DNA of 32,460 nt from Acidimicrobiales bacterium (GTDB taxonomy: Bacteria; Actinomycetota; Acidimicrobiia; Acidimicrobiales; Aldehydirespiratoraceae). The notes below the pieces were generated by a model that was given only the letters and a program-made list of their open reading frames with translations, was not told where the DNA came from and searched no databases. Below are positions 1-7,537 of the stretch, piece after piece. Position numbers and translations under genes: made by a program. The number at the start of each line of letters is the position of its first letter. Positions within the stretch are counted from its first letter, which is position 1. The stretch spans positions 1 through 32,460 of the forward strand of contig JAJCXZ010000029.1 of NCBI GenBank assembly GCA_029263175.1. The letters run 5' to 3'.

Positions 1-1182
<1,182 letters not shown>

Positions 1183-1206
1183 TCGATCCTCCGAGATCGT
1201 TTTCGT

Positions 1207-1220
1207 TTAGCACGGTGCTA
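1207..1220 (-). repeat. Extra CIRCE-like half-site palindrome in the groES leader
   Basis: Between the CIRCE operator and the groES ribosome site the coding strand reads TAGCAC-C-GTGCTAA, a perfect palindrome built from CIRCE core half-sites but with one central base instead of nine. With the overlapping GTGCTTTAGCAC palindrome at 1233-1244, the short leader holds several inverted copies of the same core. It could be an RNA hairpin or an auxiliary binding site. No function is shown. Confidence 0.5.
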
Positions 1221-1237
1221 GGAGCCTGCCTCGTGCT

Positions 1238-1264
1238 TTAGCACTCGGACAGGTCGACTGCTAA
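1238..1264 (-). promoter_or_regulatory. CIRCE operator (HrcA binding site) of groESL
   Basis: Read on the coding strand the site is TTAGCAGTC, nine bases, GAGTGCTAA. The CIRCE consensus is TTAGCACTC-N9-GAGTGCTAA, so the right arm is perfect and the left arm has one mismatch. It begins where the -10 box of the groES promoter ends, so bound HrcA would block transcription initiation. This is the established mode of control for groE operons in many bacteria. The hrcA gene itself is not in the window. Confidence 0.9.
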
Positions 1265-1292
1265 CGATAGAACCAGGGCATGCCCGCGACAA
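1264..1292 (-). promoter_or_regulatory. Sigma-A-type promoter of groESL
   Basis: On the coding strand there is TTGTCG (1287-1292), exactly 17 bases, then TATCGT (1264-1269). This is a good match to a housekeeping -35/-10 pair with optimal spacing. The -10 box abuts the CIRCE operator, which supports the assignment. The -35 box lies 25 bases past the stop codon of the GGDEF gene, so read-through from that operon is possible. Confidence 0.7.
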
Positions 1293-1316
1293 CCCGGAAA
1301 CCGTCGAATCGACGTG

Positions 1317-2954
1317 TCAGGGCCTGGAAGCCGTGCTGACTTCGTCAGAAGCGACCGTGCTGGAGCCGTCGCCCTGCCGCAACGTGGTCAATGCAGCATT
1401 GGCGAGCTGCAGAATCCCGCGCACGCTGGTGGCCAGATGGGTGTCCGCAATGCCGACATGCCCCTCGATACCGACCAACCGGGCTCGATCGAAGGCGGCC
1501 CGGAGATCGTCCTGCATTCGTTCGAAGAAGGGGCGAGCAGCGGCGGCAGAGGCCGCCGGCACCACGACGACGAATTCGCCACCGGCCCAGCGGCCCACGA
1601 AGTCGCCCGCTCGGCAGGAGGACTGGAGTGACTCGGCGGCAACCTTCAGCGCTCGGTCTCCTCCCGCCCTGTCATCTCGATCATTCATCTCGATCAGCCC
1701 GGCGATCTCGATCAGGGCAACGGCCCCGGTATTGATCTCCGCGACCAGGGCACGAAGTCGGTCCTCGGTCGCCCGACGGTTCGGCAGGCCGGTGAGAACG
1801 TCAGTCGAGGCCTGGAGTTCAGCCTTGGCGAACGAACGAAGCGTGCCGATACGCGTGGCCGACTCACTGGCCACCATGGTGAGATCCTCGACCAGGTCCT
1901 TCGGCGGTGTCTCGCCGACCGGTCCGGTCGCATGAAGCACGCCCATCGGCTGACCCATGAACGTCAGCGGTGAACAGACCGCCGAGCACGGCGCCTCATG
2001 CTGCGCAAGGTGCGGACACGAGCGGATCGATTTCGAATCGTCGAACACCATGGTCGTGCCCCGACGAACCGCGGGGCACGACCACGGCCCTATCACGCCA
2101 CATCCGCTGCCTCCCCTGACGGGATGAACGGCCACGGGACGAAGGTGGGCCTGGCTCGAGTCGGCGAGGAGCAACTCGGCGGCATGATCAGGAGCAGCCA
2201 CGCGGAGCGCCCGGGAGATGACGGCGAACGCCTTCTCTTCGGTTTCGGCCACATCGAGGCCGTCAGTGACCTGCACCCTCAGCGTTCGACGAGCGGTGTC
2301 GCGTGCCGAGAGGTCCTGCCAGTTCTGGAGCTTCTTGAGCGAACGCTCGATCGAGCGGCTGAGGGGAAGAATCGCAGTGACGACAATCACGGTGAAGACC
2401 ACTACAGCACCACCGGTGACGATCTGGATCCAGCGAAACCAATTCCCGAGATCGGTCACGGCTTCCCTCGCCAAATCCCCGGCCAGGGTCGCAGCTGTCG
2501 ATGCAAGCTCGGCATAGGTCAAACTCAGACTCGCCAAACCAATATTGACATCAGTTGCCGTGGAGCCGTCGACACTGATCAGCCTTGTCAAACGACGGTT
2601 CGCAGCGGCAAATTCGCCCAGCTCGTCGGCGTGTTCCCTCCCCTGAACGTTGGCGAGGTGATGCTGCGTCTCGTCGAGGGCCCGAGTCAGATCAGCTCTT
2701 GCCTGTTCCGGGTCAATGCTCCACCTTCCAAGGATGACCACGATCTGCTCGGCGGAACCGCCGACCTCGGCCCAAACTGTTGATTCGGCGAGGTGGGCTT
2801 CTGAGTCGCCATCAATCGTGCGGATGGTGAACGTCAACGCCACCGAGAGCAGGAACATCACCAGCAAGCAGCCGACAACGGCGTAGTTCAGCCGTTGGTA
2901 GCGGCGCGTTGCGGCCCACCGCTGCGATGCGGCGCGCAGTGCCCGGGGTGTCAC
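1317..2954 (-). CDS. Membrane GAF-GGDEF protein with degenerate cyclase site (third of three tandem paralogues)
   Basis: A 545-residue protein. Two membrane segments (about 24-45 and 177-197) flank an extracytoplasmic sensor region; a GAF domain (about 245-370) and a GGDEF-family domain (about 383-530) follow. The GAF domain carries Cys at 285, 293, 313, 323 and 327, in the spacing shared with its two upstream paralogues. The GGDEF motif reads AGGEF (457-461) instead of GGEEF, the metal-binding Asp is replaced by Glu (416) and the DxDxFK region is lost, so diguanylate cyclase activity is unlikely. The RxxD inhibitory-site motif (RAGD, 448-451), five residues before the motif, is kept, so it may act as a c-di-GMP receptor. 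I chose the GTG at 2954: it overlaps the upstream stop as GTGA and has a GAGGTGG ribosome site. An ATG at 2978 would add eight residues. Confidence 0.85.
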   Translation of the reverse strand: MTPRALRAASQRWAATRRYQRLNYAVVGCLLVMFLLSVALTFTIRTIDGDSEAHLAESTVWAEVGGSAEQIVVILGRWSIDPEQARADLTRALDETQHHLANVQGREHADELGEFAAANRRLTRLISVDGSTATDVNIGLASLSLTYAELASTAATLAGDLAREAVTDLGNWFRWIQIVTGGAVVVFTVIVVTAILPLSRSIERSLKKLQNWQDLSARDTARRTLRVQVTDGLDVAETEEKAFAVISRALRVAAPDHAAELLLADSSQAHLRPVAVHPVRGGSGCGVIGPWSCPAVRRGTTMVFDDSKSIRSCPHLAQHEAPCSAVCSPLTFMGQPMGVLHATGPVGETPPKDLVEDLTMVASESATRIGTLRSFAKAELQASTDVLTGLPNRRATEDRLRALVAEINTGAVALIEIAGLIEMNDRDDRAGGDRALKVAAESLQSSCRAGDFVGRWAGGEFVVVVPAASAAAARPFFERMQDDLRAAFDRARLVGIEGHVGIADTHLATSVRGILQLANAALTTLRQGDGSSTVASDEVSTASRP

Positions 2955-4693
2955 GAGTCCACCTCGGCCGCCGTCCACATCTCCTCGAACTCACGATCGG
3001 CATCGTCCCCATGGTCCACCCCTGGGAGCGGGGCCACGACTGGTCCGATGACAACACGATCTCGGCCCTGCGTCTTGGCCACCAGCAGCGCCTCATCGGC
3101 GAGGCGGACGAGTTCGTCGCCCCGGCGACCGGCGTCGGTGTCGACGAGACCCATCGAGACGGTGACAGCGGGCGCTTCGGCTCGAGCCCACGCGTCAGCG
3201 AGGCGGTCGCGAACACGATCCAGCGCTTCCTTTGCACTCCCGGCCGCCATGCCCGGAAGCACAATGACGAACTCCTCGCCGCCCCATCGACCGATCCAGT
3301 CGTCGGCGCGGAGGGCGTCTCTGATCGAATCAGCAAAGATGCGGAGTACTCGATCACCGGTCTCCTGGCCGTACTTGTCGTTGAGCTGCTTGAAGCCGTC
3401 GAGGTCGGCCATCGCCACTGAAACCGTGTCCTGCTTTCGCAGCGCTCTTTCGAGCTGATCCTCCGTGGCGCGACGGTTCGGCAGGCCGGTGAGCACATCC
3501 GTCGATGCCTGAAGCTCGACCTGGGCGAACGAGCGGAGTGTCCCGATCCGTACGGCGACCTGAGAGGCGACGAGTCCGAGCACATCGACGATGGCGGAAT
3601 CCGCAACGACATCAACTGCGCCAGTCGTGTGGATGACACCCATGGATTCGCCCATGAACGACAGCGGAACACACGTCGCCGAGCATGCGCCGCCTGGCCG
3701 TCCAGCGAGGTGCGGGCATGCATTGATCGACTCTGAGTTCTCGTAGGTCATCGTGCGACCACGACGAACAGCGGGGCAGGACCAAGGCGAATCCACGCCA
3801 CATCCCGGTCCTCCATGGCGAGGGTGCTGAACCGCGCTCGCCAAGTCAGCCTTCGCCGCACTGGCCAGCATCAACTCCACCGGGGCCGAGGGAATCAGAC
3901 GCTCGAAGGCGCGTTCGACGACACGATGGGTCTCGTCCTCCGATTCCGCGGCCTCCAGCCCGTCGGCAAGATGCGACGTCAGTTCCTGGCGCTCTGATTC
4001 AGCGCGATGCGTCTGATTGGCCGCCTCGAGAGCTGCGCTCTCCCGCTGCATGAGCCGCTTCAGCGGACGAAGCAACATTCCGACGAGCAGGAACAGGAAG
4101 GCCAGCGCGAAGACGGCGGATGCGGAGCTCGACCAGCGCATGTCGGTGATTGTCTGATCGGCGCGCGACTCGAAGACGTTCACCACGAAATTCATACGAT
4201 CGGCGAGTTCGGTCGCATCGTTCTCAAGGCGGCTCGCCTTGGAAACGTCGACCTCGCTCAATGCCGCCACGCCGCCCGAGCCTGCGTCGGCCATGGCCGA
4301 TGCATCGTCGATCCAGTGCTCGAGAGTTGCGGACAGACCCTGCGATCCCGAGAGTTCAGCCACGACCCCATCGGGCAACGCCTCGATATCGCCGAGTCGC
4401 GCATCCCACTCACTGGACAGGTCATCGACGACGCGCTTCAGGTCCGATCGGGAGGACAACGAGCGAGGCGAATTCGAGATCGAGGCGAGGACATCCGCCG
4501 AGATACGCAGATCCTCGACGAGGTCAGCGACGCCGCGGGCCTGTTCGGTTTCCGTCTCGATCGAATCCAGTCCGGACTGTGTGGAATACCACACGAACGC
4601 CGAAACGATCACCGCCACCACGAGCCCGGCTTGGTAGCCGCGGGCGAACCGTTGGTGGAGGGGGAGGCGCGTTACGCGGCGCAGCTTTCTCAT
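2951..4693 (-). CDS. Membrane GAF-GGDEF diguanylate cyclase (second of three tandem paralogues)
   Basis: A 580-residue protein predicted to make cyclic di-GMP from two GTP at the inner face of the membrane. The order is a transmembrane segment (about 21-38), an extracytoplasmic helical sensor region, a second membrane segment (about 191-208), a short linker, a GAF domain (about 255-385) and a GGDEF domain (about 395-550). The cyclase signature is complete: metal-binding Asp430 in MADLDGFKQLND, GGEEF at 471-475, and an RxxD inhibitory site (RADD, 462-465) at canonical distance, so product inhibition is expected. GAF cysteines are at 298, 306, 326, 337 and 341. The ATG overlaps the preceding stop as ATGA and has a GAGGT ribosome site, so it is translationally coupled to the gene upstream. 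What it senses is unknown. Confidence 0.9.
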   Translation of the reverse strand: MRKLRRVTRLPLHQRFARGYQAGLVVAVIVSAFVWYSTQSGLDSIETETEQARGVADLVEDLRISADVLASISNSPRSLSSRSDLKRVVDDLSSEWDARLGDIEALPDGVVAELSGSQGLSATLEHWIDDASAMADAGSGGVAALSEVDVSKASRLENDATELADRMNFVVNVFESRADQTITDMRWSSSASAVFALAFLFLLVGMLLRPLKRLMQRESAALEAANQTHRAESERQELTSHLADGLEAAESEDETHRVVERAFERLIPSAPVELMLASAAKADLASAVQHPRHGGPGCGVDSPWSCPAVRRGRTMTYENSESINACPHLAGRPGGACSATCVPLSFMGESMGVIHTTGAVDVVADSAIVDVLGLVASQVAVRIGTLRSFAQVELQASTDVLTGLPNRRATEDQLERALRKQDTVSVAMADLDGFKQLNDKYGQETGDRVLRIFADSIRDALRADDWIGRWGGEEFVIVLPGMAAGSAKEALDRVRDRLADAWARAEAPAVTVSMGLVDTDAGRRGDELVRLADEALLVAKTQGRDRVVIGPVVAPLPGVDHGDDADREFEEMWTAAEVDS

Positions 4694-6429
4694 TGCAGTA
4701 CCTCACTTTCGAGACCTTCGGCCTCGCGAGAGTCGAGTGACGCGGAGTCGACGGGACCAACAATGATCCGGTCTCGGCCCTCTTCCTTCGCCACGTACAG
4801 GCAGTTGTCCGCGTGAGCGACAAGCTCGTCGAGCGACGCGGCTACAGAGGTGTCGACAACGCCGATCGAGACGGTGACATTCGGGCCCTCGGTGCGTTCA
4901 CAACGTTCGGCCAAGTTCGCGCGAATCCGCTCGATAGCCGCGCCGGCTTCTGCCGCAGCCATGCCGGGCAGGTACATGACGAACTCCTCGCCACCCCAGC
5001 GGCCGACCCAGTCCTGTTCGCGGATCGACTCGCGCACGACATCGGCGAACATGCGGAGGGCGCGGTCTCCGGCTTCGTGGCCGTAGGTGTCGTTGAGCAC
5101 TTTGAACTTGTCGAGGTCAGCCATGGCGATGGCTCCTCGTTCGCGAGATGCGATCGCTCGTCCAATGTGATCCTCGGTGGCGCGCCGGTTCGGGAGGCCC
5201 GTGAGCACATCAGTGGATGCCTGGAGTCGGGCCTGGGCAAACGATCGAATGGTGCCGAGGCGAACAGCGGTTTGGCCGGCGATGAGTTCCAACGCATCGA
5301 TCTGAATGGTCGGCGGCTTCCAGCCGACGTCACCCGTCACATGGAGCACGCCCATGGCATCGCCTATGAAGGACACCGGAACACAGATCGCGCTGCAGGG
5401 ACCGTCCTCTCGGTCGGCGAGGTACGGACAGGCCCGAATCGAGTCGGAGTCTTCATACCGGATGGTCGATGCACGGCGCACCGCCGGACACGACCACGGG
5501 GAAGAAACGCCGCATCCGGGAGCCGGGAGGCTCGCGTTGACAGCAACCGGCTTCAAGTGCGCCATCGATGAGTCGGCCAGCAGCATCTCAACCGGGTGTT
5601 CACGAACAACAGTTCCGAGGGCCCGCTCCACGACCTCGCGGACCGCCTCTTCCGTTTCGGCGGTCTCCATACCTTCACTGAGCCGTGCGTTCAGGTCACG
5701 CCGGAGTCGGTCGACCTGATGAATCTCGTCTGCTTGCTTGGACTGTTCCTGTTCGACACTGAGCTGCTTGACCAACGGCCGCCCCAGCACGAACAGGCGC
5801 AGCGCTGACAGGACCACGGTGATGGCAGCCAACAAGCGGCCGAGGATGCGCAGCGAGTACGCCGAATCACTCAGGGTGTCGGCGTCGGCTTGGATGAGAT
5901 CGGCAAGCGGCTTGTCGAGGGCTTCGATCCGGTCGAACGCCAAGAGCAGGGCAACACGGAGGTTCAGTGCGCCGACCGGGCCGGCATGGAGTTCGACGAG
6001 CAGGTCAGCTGACTGAAGGGCGAGGGCCACACCCTCACCGATCGGGACGAGCTCACCTTCGAATTCGACCTCGGCGACGCCGAGGTCGGGGTTCTGAACA
6101 ACGATTTCGACATGGCGTTCCGCGATCGCGCTCGAAAGTTCGGCGATCTCAACGCGTTGGTCGGCCTCGCGAGCCAGATCATCGAGTTCCAGGAGCTCGG
6201 CGAGGTCGCCGCGAAGACGAAGAAGGTCCGCCCTTTGCTCGGAGAGCAACTCGACCTCGTGTTCGCGCGAAGCCATCGTGCCGCTGATCGTCTCCGTCAA
6301 CAGCAACATGGCGAGGGCCAAGACGGCTGTGACCGCGAACCCAGCCCGAACACCGCGCTGGAAGCGCGAAACGAGGGTTCCATCACCCTGACGTCGAGAA
6401 ATTGGCGAACGAAGCATCTCTCTACCCAT
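4690..6429 (-). CDS. Membrane GAF-GGDEF diguanylate cyclase (first of three tandem paralogues)
   Basis: A 579-residue protein with the same plan as the next two genes. Membrane segments lie at about 28-50 and 195-215, enclosing about 145 extracytoplasmic residues rich in acidic residues and Leu. A GAF domain (about 255-395) and a GGDEF domain (about 405-562) follow. The cyclase residues are intact: Asp438 in MADLDKFKVLNDTYG and GGEEF at 479-483, with the inhibitory RxxD as REQD (470-473). GAF cysteines are 306, 314, 334, 345 and 349. It is the first gene of the three-gene unit and starts 103 bases after tsaD. I see no convincing promoter in that gap. The ATG at 6427-6429 lacks a clear ribosome site, and an in-frame ATG four codons later (6415-6417) follows GGTAGAGAG and is an alternative start. 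Confidence 0.9.
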   Translation of the reverse strand: MGREMLRSPISRRQGDGTLVSRFQRGVRAGFAVTAVLALAMLLLTETISGTMASREHEVELLSEQRADLLRLRGDLAELLELDDLAREADQRVEIAELSSAIAERHVEIVVQNPDLGVAEVEFEGELVPIGEGVALALQSADLLVELHAGPVGALNLRVALLLAFDRIEALDKPLADLIQADADTLSDSAYSLRILGRLLAAITVVLSALRLFVLGRPLVKQLSVEQEQSKQADEIHQVDRLRRDLNARLSEGMETAETEEAVREVVERALGTVVREHPVEMLLADSSMAHLKPVAVNASLPAPGCGVSSPWSCPAVRRASTIRYEDSDSIRACPYLADREDGPCSAICVPVSFIGDAMGVLHVTGDVGWKPPTIQIDALELIAGQTAVRLGTIRSFAQARLQASTDVLTGLPNRRATEDHIGRAIASRERGAIAMADLDKFKVLNDTYGHEAGDRALRMFADVVRESIREQDWVGRWGGEEFVMYLPGMAAAEAGAAIERIRANLAERCERTEGPNVTVSIGVVDTSVAASLDELVAHADNCLYVAKEEGRDRIIVGPVDSASLDSREAEGLESEVLQ

Positions 6430-6532
6430 CGGTACGGGCCAGAGGTCACTTCAGAGAGGCCTGACCAACGTAAGGACCCTTAGGGCCAGAAGACCCACGA
6501 ACGGCGTTCTGAGGCGATATGTCGGTTGTCGT

Positions 6533-7537
6533 TCAGTGCACCGGGAGTCGCAACGATGGATCCGCTCCGATGTTGAGCGGCGAGGGCCCGTCAGCCTCCA
6601 GCCGCCACCACGCGGCCGCGGCCACCATCGCAGCATTGTCCGTGCACATGGCTCGGCTCGGGAGGAAAGCTCGGAAGCCATCTTCGACGCAGACGTCGAG
6701 CAGTTTTTCCCGTAGCCGCGAGTTGGCCGCAACCCCGCCGCCGAGACACAGCCCTTTTGCGCCGACCTCACGCGCGGCGCGCCGTGCCTTGTCGATCAGC
6801 ACGTCGACGACCGCTTCCTGGAATGACGCGGCAAGGTCAGGAATCGCTGTGTCCGGGTTCTTGCGAACATGGTTCACAACCGACGTCTTCACGCCAGAGA
6901 AAGAGAAGTCCCAGCCATCTTTGGCCATCGCCCGCGGAAAGTGGATCGCGTTGGGATCGCCATCGACACTGAGCGCATCAATGACCGGGCCGCCCGGGTA
7001 GCCGAGGCCGAGATGGCGGGCGACCTTGTCGAAGGCCTCACCGGCGGCATCGTCCACGGTGCTTCCGAGCACGCGGTAGCGGAGATGATCCTCCATCACG
7101 ATGAGGCTGGTGTGACCGCCCGAGACCAGCAAGATCACCAGCGGCATCTCGAGGTCGGGTTCCTCGAGGAACGACGCGTAGAGGTGCGCCTCGAGGTGAT
7201 TGACGGCCACAAACGGCACGTCCCAAACCATCGACATGGCCTTGGCCGCAGACACGCCGACCAGCAGGGCGCCCACCAAACCAGGACCATAGGTGGCCGC
7301 CACAGCTTCGATCTCACGGTCCTCGACACCGGCCTCGACCACTGCCTGAGCCACAACGGGCATCAGGAGTTCGACGTGAGCACGCGATGCGACCTCGGGC
7401 ACGACGCCGCCATAGCGGGCATGAAGCTCGATTTGGCTGGAGACAACCGAAGACATGACGTCGGTGCCCCGCGACACGACAGCAGCCGCGGTCTCGTCGC
7501 AGGACGTTTCGATTCCAAGAATACGATCGGCGCTCAC
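6533..7537 (-). CDS. tsaD: tRNA N6-threonylcarbamoyladenosine synthase subunit TsaD
   Basis: A 334-residue protein that transfers the threonylcarbamoyl group onto A37 of ANN-decoding tRNAs, working with TsaB and TsaE. It begins MSADRILGIETSCDETAAAVV, the classic Kae1/TsaD start. The metal-binding HxxxH is at His114 and His118 (NHLEAHLY), and the third ligand is Asp300 in CTDNAAM. The nucleotide motifs LVSGGHTSL and CLGGGVAANSRLR are present. The start codon is GTG, overlapping the rimI stop as GTGA, so translation is coupled. It is the last gene of the acpS-to-tsaD operon, and its partners tsaE and tsaB lie just upstream. Confidence 0.97.
   Translation of the reverse strand: MSADRILGIETSCDETAAAVVSRGTDVMSSVVSSQIELHARYGGVVPEVASRAHVELLMPVVAQAVVEAGVEDREIEAVAATYGPGLVGALLVGVSAAKAMSMVWDVPFVAVNHLEAHLYASFLEEPDLEMPLVILLVSGGHTSLIVMEDHLRYRVLGSTVDDAAGEAFDKVARHLGLGYPGGPVIDALSVDGDPNAIHFPRAMAKDGWDFSFSGVKTSVVNHVRKNPDTAIPDLAASFQEAVVDVLIDKARRAAREVGAKGLCLGGGVAANSRLREKLLDVCVEDGFRAFLPSRAMCTDNAAMVAAAAWWRLEADGPSPLNIGADPSLRLPVH

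Follow-up and report, generated by a model that had tools for sequence, protein, structure and literature searches.

What do three consecutive membrane proteins sense if they share a cysteine-rich domain on the inside but differ on the outside? This question is raised by contig JAJCXZ010000029.1 of an Acidimicrobiales bacterium (assembly GCA_029263175.1), of which we analyzed positions 1 to 32,460 (the window). Three neighboring open reading frames (ORFs) on its minus strand, P3 (4690..6429), P2 (2951..4693), and P1 (1317..2978), have the same order of domains: a transmembrane (TM) segment, an extracytoplasmic region, a second TM segment, a GAF domain, and a GGDEF domain. An earlier note on this DNA had proposed that five invariant cysteines in the GAF domains provide a metal, iron-sulfur (Fe-S), or thiol redox input. 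We found that the recurrent set is four cysteines and that one of the four seems to trade places with a histidine. The best explanation for our data, which we consider a little better than an even bet as a whole, is that the GAF pocket holds a four-ligand, metal-type center that controls the synthesis of cyclic di-GMP (c-di-GMP).

The three GAF domains each contain five cysteines, C1 to C5, with the spacing C-x7-C-x19-C-x9/10-C-x3-C, just as the earlier note described. In P3 (GAF domain at 5221..5688, minus strand), these are residues 306/314/334/345/349 (codons C1 5514-5512, C2 5490-5488, C3 5430-5428, C4 5397-5395, C5 5385-5383); in P2 (3509..3976, minus strand), they are residues 298/306/326/337/341 (codons C1 3802-3800, C2 3778-3776, C3 3718-3716, C4 3685-3683, C5 3673-3671); and in P1 (1812..2276, minus strand), they are residues 293/301/321/331/335 (codons C1 2102-2100, C2 2078-2076, C3 2018-2016, C4 1988-1986, C5 1976-1974). 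Outside of the GAF domain, P1 and P3 have two cysteines each and P2 has none. The residue after C2 is proline in all three proteins, and the residue two positions after C3 (C3+2) is histidine in P1 and P2 and tyrosine in P3. Although 17 residues (ASTDVLTGLPNRRATED) are identical across the three proteins, it was an overstatement to call the GAF domains nearly unchanged: identity to the P1 domain is only 50% for P2 and 52% for P3.

We searched other genomes with a hidden Markov model of the three array GAF domains (profile A2). It matched 15 of 296 genomes sampled across the phylum (E ≤ 1e-5), 53 of 397 sampled across the order (E ≤ 1e-8), and 15 of 51 within the family (E ≤ 1e-8). (These tallies count domains of all classes and come from overlapping samples, and those for the phylum and the order are lower bounds, with at most 12 and 9 candidates scored per genome.) Five of the matches are in the window's own genome: the three array domains, a fourth five-cysteine domain on contig C32, and a domain on contig C91 (L035, 81046-81477) that keeps only C3 of the cysteines. 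We pooled the matches listed from these samples with four loci from a peptide-pattern scan. Removing identical domains and hits below 20 bits left 124 domains, and setting aside six partial ones left 118. Most of these (85) are class I, with C1, C2, C3, and C5; another 14 lack C1 but have C2, C3, and C5 (class II), 15 have only C3 (class III), and four have other patterns. So, four of the cysteines recur jointly in 85 of 118 related domains. C4 is a cysteine in just 48 of the 85 class I domains, and we rejected a strict class with five invariant cysteines on this basis. (A 77-row alignment, A4, was picked by its cysteines, and the invariant cysteine columns in it carry no evidential weight.) The A2 scores were 45-292 bits for class I, including 206-292 bits for 12 array members, and 24-82 bits for class II.

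Homologs that keep the domain without most of the cysteines do exist, namely class III (15/118, with one in the same genome). Because these score 50-75 bits, as compared to 206-292 bits for the array members, we read class III as a specialized sister group and not as a refutation of the cysteine class. All 15 of its members keep C3 and a histidine at C3+2, and the C2 motif is replaced by PW-[DEIT]-[SA]-x-A.

Class I domains are usually followed by a GG(D/E)EF motif (67/85; among the remaining 18 are domains at contig ends, the four P1 genes, and further outputs that are degenerate or of another kind) and are often preceded by two hydrophobic segments (55/85). We found no class I match in the viral contigs that we searched or in plasmids (tblastn with the P3 GAF domain as the query). 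Beyond these, we reached other phyla for class I by a peptide-pattern scan, which gave four loci, all from Actinomycetota. Five of the class I domains (L125, L127, L132, L133, and L134) lie in open frames of 403-447 amino acids whose GGDEF-like ends are strongly altered but retain an RPDD motif; it is possible that these are c-di-GMP receptors with a class I sensor.

The earlier note had also related the domain to GAF domains with a CWALRRG-type motif, and a profile of five such domains (A5) does find P2 (E = 1e-13) and P1 (E = 1e-10). Among Pfam models, the five domains are hit by generic GAF entries at most, and NCBIfam has no model that matches them. Adding 28 domains (A5 matches plus 12 fetched from the 40 listed of 47 matched plasmid records, which brought in Deinococcus, cyanobacteria, and alpha- and gammaproteobacteria) gave a full set of 146, with 85 domains in class I, 40 in class II, 15 in class III, and six others. 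In the CWALRRG-type domains, C2, C3, and C5 are in register with class I, the context past C2 is similar, C5 is followed by VP or IP, and the annotated hits have the GAF-GGDEF architecture. In contrast to P1-P3, these domains, which fall within class II, have no C1 and have tryptophan instead of proline after C2. Also, the histidine at C3+2 is kept in 24 of 27 domains with a loose CWAL-like pattern, whereas P3 has tyrosine. A loose pattern for an LQxC-type cysteine in the N-terminal helix is found in 23 of 40 class II domains (such as L165, L185, and L186) and in none of the 85 class I domains. The five-cysteine GAF domain is a sister variant of the CWALRRG-type domain. The proposal of a distinct class stands, as a relative of the CWALRRG-type domains, but four cysteines define it and not five. 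"CWALRRG" was not found in the open-licence literature that we searched, and among the open-licence matches listed there was no description of a cysteine-rich GAF domain of this kind on a GGDEF protein (which is no proof of absence).

The main evidence about what the cysteines do comes from the relationship between C1 and the histidine at C3+2. Across the 146 domains, this histidine is present in 27/85 of class I, 32/40 of class II, and 15/15 of class III (class I versus class II: p = 4e-7, Fisher exact test, uncorrected for kinship). On a maximum-likelihood tree of the 146 domains (a quick search, with the cysteine columns and C3+1 to +3 excluded), C1 changes 2 times, C2 4 times, C5 3 times, C4 20 times, and the histidine 21 times, of which 18 are inside class I. 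Changes of the histidine fall on C1-bearing branches 18 times (total length 47.8) and on C1-lacking branches twice (total length 46.4; p = 0.00025). This was the lowest p value among the 14 columns that we tested, which were those conserved in C1-less domains, including C2, C3, C5, and the histidine itself; the next lowest was 0.0788. With four trees (IQ-TREE, FastTree of all domains, without class III and others, and without the A5-derived domains) and two root states each, p ranged from 0.0002 to 0.018. The counts of changes are from parsimony, however, and 60 of the 143 inner branches are weakly supported. Also, all five A5 domains have the histidine, as do two of the three A2 domains, and the former may bias the sampling of class II towards histidine.

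Because the histidine is usually kept where C1 is absent and drifts where C1 is present, C1 and the C3+2 histidine (as ALTERNATIVES) look like they do the same job, as interchangeable fourth ligands. Metal and cluster sites tolerate exchanges between CCHC and CCCC. Such an exchange would speak more for a bound metal or Fe-S cluster than for a switch made of thiols alone, without proving it. Of the three kinds of input that were originally suggested, then, the metal or Fe-S ones fare best, with four cysteines instead of five and in three proteins that are not equivalent (see below). Three distant relatives from Actinomycetota that lack the C3+2 histidine (L052, L176, and L183) have an extra cysteine three residues past C2 (C-x2-C), which is perhaps another source of a fourth ligand.

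Where are these residues? Pfam's GAF_2 matches the GAF domains of P1-P3 at E = 3e-5 to 3e-4, which is under the curated cut-off, and matches 63 of 77 class I members at E ≤ 0.001. We modeled the P3 GAF domain with AlphaFold2 from 8 sequences (predicted local distance difference test [pLDDT] 88.9, predicted template modeling score [pTM] 0.85). In Foldseek, this model matched solved GAF domains with E down to 5.5e-6, and in VIA-align, the matches had Z of 13.5-16.4, up to the GAF domain of ptsP at Z = 16.4, with a root-mean-square deviation of 3.2 over 158 residues. As far as their titles tell, the matches listed by both tools are GAF-bearing proteins. By this model, the sensor domain of P1-P3 is of the GAF fold, with an antiparallel sheet and flanking helices. 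In model numbering (P3 residue minus 229), the cysteines are C1 77, C2 85, C3 105, C4 116, and C5 120, the strands are 63-68, 94-96, and 117-125, and the helices are 86-90, 99-102, and 106-109. Strand 63-68 is followed by a loop that contains C1; C2 and C3 are each one residue ahead of a short helix, C4 is just ahead of strand 117-125, and C5 is inside that strand. The cysteines would thus be in the loops and the strand that line the usual GAF ligand pocket, and C1, C2, C3, and C5 may meet in space. Profile searches against solved structures gave no close relative of class I (best 3oov, E = 0.0005, with the best stretch beginning past C3) or of class II (best 3trc, E = 0.012).

We propose that the GAF domains of P1-P3 hold a four-ligand, metal-type center in the usual ligand pocket, via C1, C2, C3, and C5. 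An Fe-S cluster seems likelier than zinc because the site would sit where GAF domains read signals and because there is a precedent for an Fe-S cluster in a GAF domain: the chloroplast sensor kinase/Hik2 has a [3Fe-4S] cluster with a cysteine ligand in its GAF domain (excerpts of PMC6949291). A change in the center, whether by redox, by oxygen or nitric oxide, or by loss of the metal, would move the helix at the entry to the GGDEF domain. As a result, P3 and P2 would produce more or less c-di-GMP, by combining the shared inside signal with their differing outside regions. P1, which in all likelihood does not produce c-di-GMP but keeps its I-site, would bind c-di-GMP, pair with P2 or P3, or both. 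The identity of the metal or cluster, the signal, the direction of control, and the role of P1 are all suggestions at this point.

Several observations weigh against this proposal. First, no gene for Fe-S assembly adjoins the array, as its neighbors are tsaD and groES-groEL. Second, patterns are intermediate in three of the four "other" domains in the set of 118, and both C1 and the histidine are missing from 8 of the 40 domains in class II. (Seven of these eight are actinobacterial domains without the CWALRR motif, and one is a CWALRRG domain from Deinococcus with proline in the aligned position.) Third, class III keeps C3 and the histidine but has lost C2 and C5, so that C3-x-His plays some part even where the set is incomplete. 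Fourth, C1 arose about once (2 changes), and a test with independent pairs (1-2 pairs) has no power. Finally, in a profile comparison with MsrC of E. coli, C1 pairs exactly with the first MsrC cysteine, and C2 is one residue off.

This last observation bears on the main rival explanation, which we think is possible but rather unlikely: a thiol switch without a metal, in which C1, C2, and C3 occupy slots much like those of the three cysteines of free methionine-(R)-sulfoxide reductase (fRMsr) and form disulfides to sense oxidants or small thiol or sulfoxide ligands. MsrC, like P1-P3, has a GAF fold with three cysteines in the same order and perhaps in comparable places, and C-G-T-A-V at its second cysteine resembles C-P-A-V, but MsrC is a stand-alone enzyme and its spacings are x9 and x23 instead of x7 and x19. 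The profile comparison itself is weak (probability 9.5%): C3 faces a gap, with the third MsrC cysteine five columns away, and C5, which is the fourth recurrent cysteine, has no counterpart and lies opposite a valine. VIA-align does match structures of fRMsr (3mmh, Z = 14.7; 1vhm, which we take to be MsrC of E. coli, Z = 14.1; and 3ksf, Z = 13.8), but they match no better than other GAF domains such as that of ptsP. A preferential kinship with fRMsr, which the order of the cysteines had led us to expect, was not found: other GAF domains match equally well or better, even though C1 aligns exactly. Also, exchanging histidine for cysteine would be less natural in a disulfide switch, and as the domain lies past the second membrane segment it should be cytoplasmic, where disulfides would be transient.

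Another alternative, which we consider quite unlikely, is that the cysteines bind a structural zinc and merely stabilize a GAF domain that binds a small ligand or that couples the membrane part to the GGDEF domain. CCCC and CCHC ligand sets are typical of structural zinc, and class III shows that the domain can be kept without most of the ligands, so the fold can spare a signal-bearing center. However, the ligands are predicted to surround the pocket in which GAF domains bind their signals, which fits a sensory center better.

Bilin attachment in phytochromes and cyanobacteriochromes needs one or two cysteines, not four recurrent ones. A covalent chromophore (a bilin or similar) is therefore very improbable, although GAF domains of these proteins, which attach bilin via cysteine (excerpts of PMC8846402), are among the structural matches; also, there is no bilin lyase or heme oxygenase among the nine named neighbor genes (the rest of the genome was not searched for one).

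If a metal-type center regulates c-di-GMP synthesis, then which of the three proteins are cyclases? The GGDEF domains of P3 (4768..5220, minus strand) and P2 (3056..3508, minus strand) carry the full cyclase signature, with GGEEF, DLDxFK, and the I-site RxxD (Pfam E = 1e-38), and both proteins are probable diguanylate cyclases by sequence. The GGDEF domain of P1 (1374..1811, minus strand) lacks this signature, with AGGEF for GGEEF and EIAGLI for DLDxFK, and keeps the I-site (RAGD). Its orthologs in three other genomes (L098, L036, and L037) are degenerate as well (AGAEF, AGAEF, and GGAQF) and also keep RxxD, so that P1 and all three orthologs have the combination that characterizes PelD-like proteins, a degenerate active site with an intact RxxD. 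A cyclase with AGDEF can be active, as reported for VCA0965 of Vibrio cholerae (PMC3974145). P1 has lost more than that, as the acid at the third position is missing too, along with the second aspartate of DLDxFK, and it is probably a conserved pseudo-cyclase. We therefore view the array as a pair of probable cyclases with a probable pseudo-cyclase whose degeneracy is shared by its orthologs. The genome holds 32 GGDEF and 18 EAL domains in all.

As to the rest of the proteins, the ORFs, hydropathy, and Pfam matches to GGDEF in all three bear out the description of three adjacent TM-GAF-GGDEF genes. A hydropathy count gives two hydrophobic segments before each GAF domain (P1, 28-57 and 181-211; P2, 16-34 and 186-212; P3, 25-51 and 192-210) and one weak further segment later in P1 and in P2. 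P3 and P2 overlap by 4 bases, as the earlier note stated; for P2 and P1 this holds only with the GTG at 2954 as the start of P1 (the overlap being GTGA), and with its other GTG start, at 2978, the overlap is 28 bases. Over their full length, P2 and P3 are 33 and 34% identical to P1. A common cytoplasmic input on proteins with unlike outside parts is supported. A model of full-length P3 from 7 sequences (pLDDT 76.8, pTM 0.44) has long helices over both hydrophobic segments, a poor outside part, and then the GAF and GGDEF domains. The model of the P3 ectodomain was too poor for a structure search (mean pLDDT about 44-62 per block, residues 81-170).

Along the minus strand, the gene order is acpS, NAD(P)H-hydrate dehydratase, alr, two further genes, tsaE, tsaB, rimI, tsaD, P3, P2, P1, groES, and groEL. 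The array is bounded upstream by tsaD (6533..7537, minus strand; NCBIfam TIGR03723, above cut-off) and downstream by groES (892..1182, minus strand; NCBIfam NF001530), which is followed by groEL (2-880, minus strand; GroEL models), truncated by the end of the window. An array between tsaD and groES is also present in G692 (three genes) and G693 (two genes, P3 and P2), and in L036, L037/L113, and L038 it is cut by contig ends. In the tree, the 12 array domains cluster together (Shimodaira-Hasegawa-like approximate likelihood ratio test [SH-aLRT] 99), and P3, P2, and P1 fall in their own sets of 3, 4, and 4 domains (SH-aLRT 97, 96, and 99), whose members we took as orthologs from lists of nearest rows. 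As P3, P2, and P1 each group with orthologs from other genomes, the triplication is older than the genera in which it is found, and we rejected a recent local origin.

The interval between tsaD and groES (1182-6533 in the window) varies among relatives. We examined 14 hand-picked genomes from the family that have no array hit, 13 of which have a match to tsaD. In 11 of the 13, only 131-525 bp separate the tsaD and groES alignments, with no array match; two of these 11 are from the window's own genus, with TsaD 95% identical. In G690 (L205, 594-1424, minus strand), a 276-amino-acid ORF begins like P3, with its membrane and outside part (58% identity to the start of P3), and ends like P1, with its last ~55 residues (58-62% identity to the end of P1). 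This ORF may be a dead scar left by a deletion, or it may encode a short membrane protein that has neither a GAF nor a GGDEF domain. Finally, G653 (L204) has a frame-broken remnant of the array between tsaD and groES. The array is therefore old in the family and was probably lost repeatedly, although gain and loss are not distinguishable at the empty sites.

A broader reading, which we hold with clearly less than even confidence, is that the CWALRRG-type and five-cysteine GAF domains belong to a single large family, so far undescribed, of sensors on c-di-GMP enzymes that hold a metal or an Fe-S cluster. The fourth ligand would have been exchanged between the histidine at C3+2 and C1 roughly once (in Actinomycetota, as far as we searched), and the pseudo-cyclase between tsaD and groES would read both the center and c-di-GMP beside two cyclases. 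The signal is not known for many of the GAF domains that c-di-GMP enzymes carry, and this type occurs in Actinomycetota, Deinococcota, Cyanobacteriota, and Pseudomonadota. A ligand exchange that is visible in the sequence is a direct hint of a metal or Fe-S center in a type of GAF domain. Also, P3-P2-P1 is a natural system in which two probable cyclases and a probable pseudo-cyclase have the same inner sensor and different outer ones.

Three known systems resemble parts of this proposal. As a model for P1, PelD is a membrane protein with a GAF domain and a degenerate GGDEF domain that keeps RxxD and binds c-di-GMP (excerpts of PMC7112168); PelD is encoded in a polysaccharide operon, whereas P1 is beside two probable cyclases, with no pel gene among its named neighbors. 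The chloroplast sensor kinase/Hik2 differs from our proposal for P1-P3 in having a single identified cysteine ligand (C19) and a kinase output, but there too, a conserved cysteine of a GAF domain is associated with an Fe-S cluster, and the output domain is controlled by the redox state of that cluster (excerpts of PMC6949291). Finally, in CZB-domain diguanylate cyclases the site is in a helical bundle, with 3 histidines and 1 cysteine, and not in a GAF domain; what they share with our proposal is a cyclase that reads a metal or an oxidant, there through a metal site with cysteine and histidine ligands (excerpts of PMC8846402).

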